Shown one piece after another: positions 37,959-41,256 of a stretch of DNA of 64,000 nucleotides; within the stretch, counting starts at the first letter, position 1, and every line of letters begins with the position of its first letter. Made by a program: the position numbers and the translations under genes. The stretch is from the NCBI GenBank assembly GCA_024653485.1, contig JANLFY010000003.1, positions 1 through 64,000 of the forward strand, given 5' to 3'. This DNA comes from Bacillota bacterium. Lineage in GTDB: Bacteria; Bacillota; SHA-98; UBA4971. The notes below the pieces were generated by a model, which made no database searches, was not told the DNA's origin, and was given only the letters and a program-made list of their open reading frames with translations.

Positions 37959-39959
37959 CTACTCCCTCGACAGCGTCGTCTGAGCTTCCCACTTGGCCAC
38001 CCCCACGTCGGGCGATGACGAGCCACGACGTTGCTCCTGCAAACTGCGATGCAAACCGCGCCAGGATCTAGAGGCGCTGTTGTCCGCCCCGCAGAGGTCT
38101 TGCGCCGCCCGAGCGATGTGCATCGGCGTGAGCCCGCATGCTGCAAGGAGCGCCTCGCGGGATCCGTGCTGGACGAAGGCGTCCGGAAGGGCCAAGTGGC
38201 TGACGGCCACCGCTTGTTCGCCGTAACCGCGCCTCGCGAGCGTCTCGAGGACAGCGCTCCCAAATCCTCCCAGCGGGGTTCCCTCCTCCACCACCACGAT
38301 CCTGCGGCAGCTCTCCGTAACCTGGATCAGGAGGTCCTCGTCAAGGGGTTTCGCGAACCTCGCGTTTACAACGGCGGCCCTCACGCCTTCTCGCTCGAGC
38401 AGCCGTGCTGCCTGCAGTGACGGATGGACCATGCTTCCTATGGCCACTATGGCCACGTCGTCTCCGTCCTGGACGAGCACCCCCTTGCCTCGTTCCACGG
38501 GTTGCGGCGGACGCAAGGCGGCCTGTCCGAACCCCTGGGACTTCGGGTACCGCACTGCCACGGGCCCGTCCATGGAAAGCGCGGCGCGGACCATGGCCAC
38601 CAATTCTTCCTCGTCGGCAGGTGCCATGAGCGTCATTCCGGGAACGCCGCGCAGGTAGGCAAGGTCGAATGCGCCGTGATGGGTTGGGCCGTCCTCTCCG
38701 ACGAGTCCCGCCCTGTCCACCGCGAAGACCACGTGAAGCCCCTGCAGGGCCACATCGTGAACGATTTGATCGTACGCTCTCTGGAGAAAAGTGGAATAGA
38801 TCGCCGCCACCGGAACGATGCCCAGGCTCGCTAGCCCCGCGGCGAGAGTCACGGCATGCTGCTCAGCTATACCTACATCGAAAAAGCGGTCCGGATGAAG
38901 TCGTGCGAACACATCCAGTCCCGTGCCGTCCGGCATTGCGGCGGTAATTGCCACTATCCTGTCGTCTTCGGCCGCAATGCTGGCGAGGGTTTCCCCGAAG
39001 ACCTGGGTGAAAGTCGGCGGCCCCGGTTGCTTCGGAAGCTCGCCCGAAGCCACATCGAACCTCCCCACTCCGTGAAACCTTCGAGGGTCCCGCTCGGCAG
39101 GCGCGTATCCGCGGCCCTTCTTCGTGACGACGTGCACTAGCACAGGACCGCCTTTGGCGCGCGCGTCCTCGATCGTGCGCATGACAGACGAGATGTCGTG
39201 GCCATCGAGCGGCCCAAGGTATGTGAAACCCAGGCTCTCGAAGAGCATCCCCGGCACGACGAGGTACTTGACGCTTCCCTTGAGCCTTCGCAGGCTCTCG
39301 GCAAGGTCCTTACCGATTCGGGGGACGCCCTCGAGGACGCGCTCTATGTCCTGACGTAGTTTAAGGAGGCGCGGCTCCGTTCGGATCCTGGCAAGGTAGG
39401 AGGCAAGCGCCCCCACATTCGGGGAAATGGACATCTCATTATCGTTCAGAACCACGATGAGGTCGGTCTTCACGTGGCCCGCGTGGTTGAGAGCCTCGAA
39501 CGCCATGCCCCCCGTGAGCGAGCCGTCGCCGATGACCGCGACCACTGTGAAGTCCTCGCCCTTCAGATCGCGTGCCATAGCCATGCCGAGCGCCGCGGAG
39601 ACCGAGGTGCTCGAATGGCCTGTGTTAAAGGCGTCGTGAGGGCTCTCGTCGCGTCTGGGAAAGCCGCTGAGCCCGCCGTACTGCCTGAGGCTGCCGAAGG
39701 CCGCGCGCCGCCCAGTTATGATCTTGTGTGCGTACGCTTGATGTCCGACATCCCAGATGATCTTGTCCCGCGGGCTGTCCAGCACGGCATGCAAGGCTAT
39801 CGCCAGATCCACCGCTCCGAGGCTGGATGCGAGGTGGCCCCCGGTTTTCGCCACCGTGTGGATGATTTCCTCGCGTATCTCCTGGGCGAGCCTGTCCAGT
39901 TCTCGCGGCGCAAGCCGCTTCAGATCGTGCGGGAGATCCAAGGAGTCAAGGAGTCTCAT
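37959..39959 (-). CDS. dxs: 1-deoxy-D-xylulose-5-phosphate synthase
   Basis: A 666-residue thiamine-diphosphate enzyme that starts the MEP isoprenoid pathway. The family motifs appear in order: IWDVGHQAYAHKI (about residue 69), GHSSTSVSAALGMA, GDGSLTGGMAFEALNHAG (thiamine and metal site), the central VTKKGRGYAPAE, and the transketolase-like DVGIAEQHAVTLAAGLA. The last 45 residues (after ARAAQDLCG) are a basic, low-complexity tail not usual for Dxs, overlapping the tlyA upstream region. ATG at 39959 starts MRLLDSLD; a longer frame exists upstream. It follows the OapA-like gene, overlapping its end by 14 bp. Confidence 0.95.
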   Translation of the reverse strand: MRLLDSLDLPHDLKRLAPRELDRLAQEIREEIIHTVAKTGGHLASSLGAVDLAIALHAVLDSPRDKIIWDVGHQAYAHKIITGRRAAFGSLRQYGGLSGFPRRDESPHDAFNTGHSSTSVSAALGMAMARDLKGEDFTVVAVIGDGSLTGGMAFEALNHAGHVKTDLIVVLNDNEMSISPNVGALASYLARIRTEPRLLKLRQDIERVLEGVPRIGKDLAESLRRLKGSVKYLVVPGMLFESLGFTYLGPLDGHDISSVMRTIEDARAKGGPVLVHVVTKKGRGYAPAERDPRRFHGVGRFDVASGELPKQPGPPTFTQVFGETLASIAAEDDRIVAITAAMPDGTGLDVFARLHPDRFFDVGIAEQHAVTLAAGLASLGIVPVAAIYSTFLQRAYDQIVHDVALQGLHVVFAVDRAGLVGEDGPTHHGAFDLAYLRGVPGMTLMAPADEEELVAMVRAALSMDGPVAVRYPKSQGFGQAALRPPQPVERGKGVLVQDGDDVAIVAIGSMVHPSLQAARLLEREGVRAAVVNARFAKPLDEDLLIQVTESCRRIVVVEEGTPLGGFGSAVLETLARRGYGEQAVAVSHLALPDAFVQHGSREALLAACGLTPMHIARAAQDLCGADNSASRSWRGLHRSLQEQRRGSSSPDVGVAKWEAQTTLSRE

Positions 39960-40608
39960 CACTCTCGTTCTCTCTCCATTTCCGGTGGCGATCTTGTCGC
40001 TCCCGGTTCCTCGCCGACAGCCGCGCGCGCCTGTGGTGACCGGTCTTTCCACCACGAAGGAACGTAAGTCCCGTGACGGACTCAAGGCCGGCCATCACCT
40101 TTCCGGCGGCGAGCACGATCATCTCGGCGTCGCTCACGGCGATGTTCTTGCTCCAGGCCTTTCCTCCGACCGTGAGGCCCGCGATCACTCCGATGACGAC
40201 CGTGCTGATCAAGGTCTCGCTGATGCCGGGTCGCGCAAGCGCCGCAAGGCGCATCGCGATGCTCACCCCGACCGCTCCGCTCACCGTTCCCGCCATGTCG
40301 CCGACCACGTCGTTGCAGAAGTTCGCCACGCGGTCGGCGGACCGAACGATCCTTATGGCCTGGTGGGCGCCTCGCACCTTCTTCGCCGCCATGGCGTGAA
40401 AGGGTTGTTTCTTGGCTGCCGTTGAAGCCGTGCCGATGACGTCGAACACGACCCCTATCAGGACTATCCCTAACAGAACAAAAAGTCCAAGAACCAGCCC
40501 GACCTGACCCAGCAGTATCTTGGACACGAAATTCACCAATATGGCTAGGAAAAACGTTGTAAAGCCTACGGACACAGCTCTTGCGAGACGTTGGTCCAAG
40601 AACCGCAT
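39946..40608 (-). CDS. oapA: OLE-associated membrane protein, OapA-like
   Basis: A 220-residue membrane protein encoded immediately after the OLE-like RNA and before dxs. About four hydrophobic segments are seen: residues 11-28, 32-50, around 120 and 130-150. Between them is a conserved loop FDVIGTASTAA..KQPFHAMAAKKV and then RSADRVANFCNDVVGDMAG, followed by a strongly basic tail (RRARLSARNRERQDRHRKWR) that could contact RNA. The composition and place match OapA of Bacillus halodurans (BH2780), known to bind OLE RNA and carry it to the membrane. The ATG at 40608 is chosen; a GTG at 40641 also exists. The assignment is from context and recalled sequence, not a search. Confidence 0.8.
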   Translation of the reverse strand: MRFLDQRLARAVSVGFTTFFLAILVNFVSKILLGQVGLVLGLFVLLGIVLIGVVFDVIGTASTAAKKQPFHAMAAKKVRGAHQAIRIVRSADRVANFCNDVVGDMAGTVSGAVGVSIAMRLAALARPGISETLISTVVIGVIAGLTVGGKAWSKNIAVSDAEMIVLAAGKVMAGLESVTGLTFLRGGKTGHHRRARLSARNRERQDRHRKWRENESDETP

Positions 40609-40644
40609 CACCTCGATGATGCTCCAGGCAGGTGGTAACACTCC

Positions 40645-41250
40645 GGGTAAATATTGTGGCTTGAGGTCCGGCTGGTTTTCCCTGCGGTGCTCCCTCGCGT
40701 TGCCGCTCGGGCGGTTTCCCGTTTACGACCGCCTCCCGCGGTTGCCCCTGCGGGTGGCCGGATTACCACTTAGCGCACACTGCAATCCCCGGAATGCCCC
40801 ACTTGTTCGGACAGTCTAGGAGTTTTCCTCGGCAGCCCCCACCATCTTCTAGCCTCTTTTGCAGCTAGGGTTTCATGCGGCAACGAGCCGATCCCCTGGC
40901 CAGGAGATACGGACCCTGGTACCCGCAATCCCGCTCCCGCCACTCAAGGCAGGCTACGCTGCACCAAGCACGGTGTACCTCGCACCCTGCCCGCACCTAG
41001 GTGCAGGTTTACCCCCCGGCCGTGGCAGCCGGTCGGTGCCGTCTCGCCACGGGGTCGGGTCTCCGCGAAGAGAGGGTCCACGCCCGCATGCCGTTGCAGA
41101 TCGCCCTCTCCTCTTAACCCCCAGCACCAACCCCCGACTGGGCGTCGGCGGCCAGCACCAGGGACTTCATCGATGTGCCCTTGACGGATTTTTAGGCCCG
41201 TCTTCAAAGATGGTGGTGCTGACTAGAATACTGCACCACCTGCCCTGGCA
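40645..41250 (-). ncRNA. ole: OLE RNA-like large structured noncoding RNA
   Basis: This approximately 606-nt stretch holds no credible gene. It sits between ispA and a membrane protein followed by dxs, exactly where OLE (ornate, large, extremophilic) RNA is found in extremophilic Bacillota. It has its own strong promoter (41257-41285). Visible hairpins include GGTGGTGC/GCACCACC (41212-41219 with 41233-41240), GACGG/CCGTC (41183-41187 with 41198-41202) and GGCGGT/ACCGCC (40710-40715 with 40728-40733), plus a CCCGC/GCGGG stem just upstream. OLE RNAs are about 610 nt and act at the membrane with OapA. The 3' end is estimated as just before the OapA-like gene. The call is from context, length and promoter; I could not test the covariance model. 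Confidence 0.83.
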
Positions 41251-41256
41251 CGAACG

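Follow-up and report, generated by a model that had tools for sequence, protein, structure and literature searches.

The OLE–oapA locus

The window, i.e. the whole stretch of 64,000 nucleotides that was analysed, carries on its minus strand the genes xseA, xseB, ispA, OLE RNA, oapA, dxs, tlyA, NAD kinase and argR, in this order (gene names are taken from the translations). The preliminary description had noted a membrane-protein reading frame beside an RNA. This RNA is OLE (RF01071), which lies directly upstream on the same strand, and the candidate oapA starts at 40599–40611 adjoin it. A search of the whole genome with RF01071 found OLE in one copy. The oapA frame is open from a 3′ limit at 39946 up to a GTG at 40641. 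Residue numbers are counted throughout from the GTG at 40611. The features of the locus are as follows.

40616–41255, minus strand: OLE RNA, full length (Rfam RF01071, 445.8 bits, E 1.3e-127, model positions 1–616, complete)
40608–40614, minus strand: oapA Shine-Dalgarno sequence GAGGTGA, immediately past the 3′ end of OLE; pairs with the 16S 3′ end at −12.8 kcal/mol and is conserved across the genus
40608 (ATG), 40611 (GTG) and 40641 (GTG), minus strand: alternative oapA starts
39946–40599, minus strand: coding sequence of oapA, 217 aa when read from TTG 40599, the start with the best support (Shine-Dalgarno duplex energies; Shine-Dalgarno and TTG kept in six genus members; OapA profile 255.3 bits)
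39946–39962, minus strand: the 3′ end of oapA overlaps the start of dxs; GTG 39962 is conserved in the family, and ATG 39959 is also possible

The start and the end of oapA

The reading frame was initially described as starting at ATG 40608. The Shine-Dalgarno duplex energy is −12.8 kcal/mol for TTG 40599 versus −5.6 for the ATG and GTG codons. Shine-Dalgarno sequence and TTG are kept in six of six genus members, and the ATG is missing from two of them. On these sequence comparisons TTG 40599 is the best-supported start, and the ATG gives way to it. As a side observation, Shine-Dalgarno strength favours a TTG start in 31 of 51 oapA loci; the same rule applied to dxs points to TTG in two of 18.

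The overlap with the dxs start, also described earlier, is present and conserved. It amounts to 17 nt if dxs starts at GTG 39962 and to 14 nt if it starts at ATG 39959, and across the two genera of the family most members retain the overlap with the GTG start. Thus dxs shapes the last codons of oapA.

Association with OLE RNA and identity

An OapA profile was built from the open reading frames behind OLE in related genomes, with 51 homologues aligned. Among the 61 nearest genomes the profile matches exactly the 51 that have OLE; the other 10 have neither, and the profile and OLE searches found no OapA homologue without OLE in this set. The association extends to the phylum, where 282 of 398 genomes have both OLE and OapA, 107 have neither, two have OLE only and seven have OapA only (Fisher p 1e-85, shared ancestry being ignored). 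In seven of the nine mismatches a contig end interrupts the locus: in six of the seven OapA-only cases the oapA match is 33–223 nt away from the end of its contig, on the side of OLE, and in one OLE-only case (G316) the contig ends within oapA. The seventh OapA-only case, G274, has a decayed oapA remnant. Because of the contig ends, the apparent OapA-without-OLE genomes of the 398 were dropped as evidence.

Two unusual arrangements should be pointed out. In genome G340 (C36:3026–3699; L097, 1501–2174) an OLE RNA of 475 bits is followed directly by dxs, and oapA was not found in this genome, which is listed as 99% complete. In two other genomes OLE and oapA lie on separate contigs (C1 and C5 in G018, C85 and C73 in G027, respectively).

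Pfam and NCBIfam gave no match above cut-offs for the window OapA; DUF3397 of Pfam appeared below the cut-off, and NCBIfam gave nothing. The published signature of OapA is DxxxD (PMC11332333), and D100A and D104A are the mutations in H. halodurans OapA PM1 (PMC9723947). The D101-V-V-G-D105 of the window OapA has the same spacing as D100/D104, and both Asp residues are present in all 51 aligned proteins.

The genome also encodes the partners OapB and OapC, for which the preliminary description had suggested a search. The OapB gene lies between map and infA; it was missed by a KOW family search and was located by its map–infA position together with a best match to the PDB entry for OLE-associated protein B (E 1.2e-9). 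The OapC/YbxF gene lies between rpoC and rpsL (E 1.5e-19), and a bS21 gene is present as well.

The original assignment of the reading frame to OapA is well supported by its position behind OLE, the co-occurrence, the DxxxD motif, a CNNM-like fold (see below) and the OapB and OapC genes. The features shared with H. halodurans OapA are a gene directly behind OLE, four transmembrane helices, DxxxD, the CNNM-like fold and the presence of oapB and oapC; the differences are a longer Arg-rich C-terminal tail and a start that is likely TTG in the window protein. OLE RNA binding and membrane localisation by OapA have been published for H. halodurans (PMC12265935, PMC9723947). Both properties are carried over here by analogy, and the window OapA would accordingly anchor its OLE RNA in the membrane.

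Fold and polar core

The AlphaFold2 model of OapA (mean pLDDT 86.5) has long hydrophobic helices at residues 2–37, 39–65, 92–125 and 132–160, and the description as a four-helix membrane protein holds. The features of the membrane domain, all on the minus strand, are given below.

40501–40608, minus strand: TM1, model helix 2–37, hydrophobic from about residue 17 (AlphaFold2, hydropathy)
40417–40497, minus strand: TM2, helix 39–65, which carries the invariant F56 and D57 (AlphaFold2)
40414–40446, minus strand: FDVIGTASTAA segment, residues 56–66; D57 in 51/51 (hhalign, 7m1t alignment offset)
40237–40338, minus strand: TM3, helix 92–125 (AlphaFold2)
40297–40317, minus strand: CNDVVGD, residues 99–105, the DxxxD signature; D101, G104 and D105 in 51/51
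40132–40218, minus strand: TM4, helix 132–160 (AlphaFold2)
40147–40161, minus strand: K151-x3-K155, both invariant (51/51)
40072–40128, minus strand: helix 162–180, by its order the probable equivalent of the CNNM juxtamembrane helix (AlphaFold2, VIA-align, hhalign)

F56, D57, D101, G104, D105, K151 and K155 are invariant in the 51 aligned OapAs, and the first five of these bear out the conservation previously attributed to the FDVIGTASTAA and CNDVVGD segments.

Structural comparison points to the CNNM family. In VIA-align, CNNM entries occupy ranks 1–4, with 7m1t at the top (Z 13.4, rmsd 1.9 over 127 residues), and the next unrelated row has Z 8.0. A comparison with 20 CNNM proteins by hhalign gives probability 95 and E 3e-8; Pfam CNNM is touched by 42 of the 51 OapA members (best 5.6e-8), and Foldseek alone ranks CNNM first, at E 0.01. 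A search of PDB sequences with the OapA-alignment profile returned chance-level viral glycoprotein matches only (E 0.13 or worse).

The reported Mg2+ ligands of MtCorB are Ser21, Ser25, Ser71, Glu111 and the Gly110 carbonyl (PMC8242095). Two alignments place G53, D57, G150, K151 and K155 of OapA at CNNM Ser21, Ser25, Gly110, Glu111 and Lys115, and D105 falls at or beside Ser71 of MtCorB, a placement uncertain by one residue. Glu111, Pro114 and Lys115 are each found in 20 of 20 CNNM proteins; OapA has Lys at 151 and at 155 in 51/51 and Pro at 154, the Pro114 equivalent, in 0/51, and the Glu of the CNNM FSxxE motif is Gly or Ala. On the strength of the D57 and K151 placements in the two alignments, OapA is read as having extra acids and a Lys in place of the CNNM Glu. 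Judged by these residues OapA is CNNM-like, not CNNM, with the Mg2+-site Glu replaced by Lys in 51/51, and this replacement speaks against transport of the CNNM type with unchanged chemistry. We did not find the D57/K151 exchange stated in the parts of the literature available to us.

With MtCorB (7m1t), MpfA and CNNM proteins OapA shares the fold of the transmembrane domain and the basic hairpin linking CNNM helices 1 and 2, and its G150-x-x-x-x-K155 equals Gly110 and Lys115. It differs from MtCorB and CNNM in having an additional N-terminal transmembrane helix, in D57 for Ser25, G53 for Ser21 and K151 for Glu111, in lacking an equivalent of Pro114 and in lacking CBS and CorC domains. Pfam detects no CBS-pair or CorC domain, and OapA ends 40 residues past the juxtamembrane helix. 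The region after this helix is basic in OapA, whereas in CNNM proteins it is helical and acidic (19 of 20). The N-terminus, the TM2–TM3 loop (+7) and the C-tail (+6) of OapA are net positive, which fits a predicted topology with both N- and C-termini inside.

A search of the whole genome found no full-length CNNM/MpfA. Among the relatives, full CNNM proteins are present in 13 of the 51 OLE-positive genomes versus nine of the 10 OLE-negative ones (p 2e-4), in agreement with the anticorrelation of OLE and full CNNM/MpfA already published.

OapA without OLE

That OLE and OapA possibly never occur apart is a published idea. Homologues in related genomes that occur without OLE had been named in the preliminary description as a finding that would speak against OapA. 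There are none in the 61 nearest genomes, but two distant Clostridia metagenome-assembled genomes (MAGs), found through OapA, have an intact oapA and run against the idea. The rule of never apart is thus broken; the identification stands.

In both MAGs (L038, CACXFJ010000034.1, 2851–3546; L039, CAMFVQ010000053.1, 2899–3525) oapA is directly behind ispA, in the order xseA-xseB-ispA-oapA, and the gap of about 50–100 nt between ispA and oapA is too short for OLE. No OLE was found at either locus at E up to 1 with lax filters, nor elsewhere in either MAG. D57, D101, G104, D105, K151 and K155 are all kept. The TM2–TM3 hairpin is rewritten in L039 (K77H, K78R, a gap at G81, R90E, A92N) but not in L038. 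L037, which has a similar OapA, has OLE between ispA and oapA. The two MAGs, for which completeness figures are absent, seem to have lost OLE, and this is to be taken as a lead.

A different course is seen in one genus, where OLE and oapA decay together: G251 has both intact, in G029 (L054) OLE is degraded (169.9 bits) and oapA is broken, and G274 (L106) retains an oapA remnant only. G029 carries a full CNNM protein.

With the RNA cleanly lost and oapA intact in at least two Clostridia lineages, one of them with its hairpin rewritten, OapA might perform some membrane function independently of OLE; we consider this a serious possibility, if one that falls somewhat short of an even chance. Another proposal casts OapA primarily as an ion carrier of the membrane that has its own function; OLE RNA would then be a regulator which certain lineages do without. 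The core residues kept in L038 and L039 where OLE is absent speak for it, as do two published findings, that OapA is homologous to Mg2+ transporters and that mutants of H. halodurans show an Mg2+ phenotype (PMC11332333). However, this evidence comes from two MAGs of unstated completeness, co-occurrence is almost complete elsewhere, and OLE and oapA decay jointly in the genus of G029 and G274. In addition, K151 replaces the metal-binding Glu, and transport is a conjecture. The proposal is therefore rather doubtful.

Basic regions and possible RNA contact

Two basic regions of OapA come into consideration for contact with OLE RNA.

39949–40065, minus strand: Arg-rich C-terminal tail, residues 183–221, with an acidic final stretch in which dxs starts
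40342–40410, minus strand: basic hairpin of two helices (68–76 and 82–90) that connects TM2 to TM3, the best candidate for RNA contact

The preliminary description saw in the tail an unusually basic, RNA-contacting element. Its basic nature is evident: K+R make up 12 of its 39 residues versus a mean of 5.2 over 54 control reading frames of the window, and it is the sole tail with at least 12 and the most K/R-rich C-terminus of the set. A short basic end is general in OapA, with a net charge of at least 3 in 42 of 51. As a specific contact the long tail fares poorly. A genus-specific RNA-binding element would be compatible with the K+R count, which stays at 11–13 per about 31 tail residues in six of six genus members, even though more than one-third of the residues differ in many pairs, with the AlphaFold2 model, which draws residues 192–218 as a helix (pLDDT mostly 65–92), and with a neutral-drift simulation, which reaches K+R of at least 11 in only 16–22% of runs. 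The six tails are not independent, so that the simulation is weak evidence. Within the genus, dN/dS is mostly 0.4–0.9 for the tail versus 0.05–0.17 for the core, the rates being rough because the tails are short. Moreover, OLE-linked OapAs have basic stretches of anything from 2 to 43 residues, and the partnership can therefore do without a long tail. Fast-changing and poorly conserved as it is, the tail is a weak candidate: specific RNA contact by the long tail is not supported and a genus-specific element is unlikely, though the tail may act through loose electrostatics. The idea of a viral-type arginine-rich RNA-binding motif in the tail was dropped, composition alone being in its favour.

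The TM2–TM3 hairpin and K151/K155 are better candidates for RNA contact than the tail. The hairpin is favoured because its basic residues are better conserved (among OLE-linked rows, 96% have K/R at K78 and 86% have R90), and because its counterpart in MtCorB is likewise basic and has sulfate bound (PMC8242095). The median net charge of the hairpin is +4 over the 51 OapAs.

That the reading frame encodes an ordinary truncated Mg2+ transporter of the CNNM/MpfA type, beside OLE by chance, is highly improbable: it has the 7m1t fold and the profile-level homology found by hhalign in its favour, but invariant CNNM residues fail in the 51 rows (Gly/Ala for the FSxxE Glu, Lys for Glu111, never Pro for Pro114) and OapA co-occurs with OLE in the 398 genomes.

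Proposed role of OapA

The best explanation of the whole, which we hold with high confidence, is that the reading frame is oapA and encodes the integral-membrane partner of the adjacent OLE RNA, with a CNNM-like fold and a basic, probably RNA-binding cytosolic face. OapA combines the fold of the CNNM/CorB transporter domain with an extra N-terminal helix and a remodelled polar core (D57, D101, D105, K151, K155), without CBS domains. It most likely forms a dimer in the membrane, its two ends and the TM2–TM3 hairpin lying on the cytosolic side, and the basic cytosolic face would bind OLE RNA and so anchor it. The ion-handling core probably does metal-related work, and OLE RNA together with OapB and OapC probably stands in for the regulatory domains that OapA lacks. 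The topology, the surface that touches the RNA and any transport by OapA are the conjectural parts of this scheme; the identity, co-occurrence, fold, conserved residues and partner genes were shown by the analysis.

The partnership of OapA and OLE is itself already known, and a known RNA–protein machine here gains an ordinary new member: the OLE/OapA pair, together with OapB, OapC and bS21 in the same genome, is added from an uncultured high-GC lineage of Bacillota. The D57/K151 exchange relative to CNNM provides precise residues for mutation. The OLE-free OapAs, if confirmed, would make it possible to tell the work of OapA on its own from its work for the RNA.
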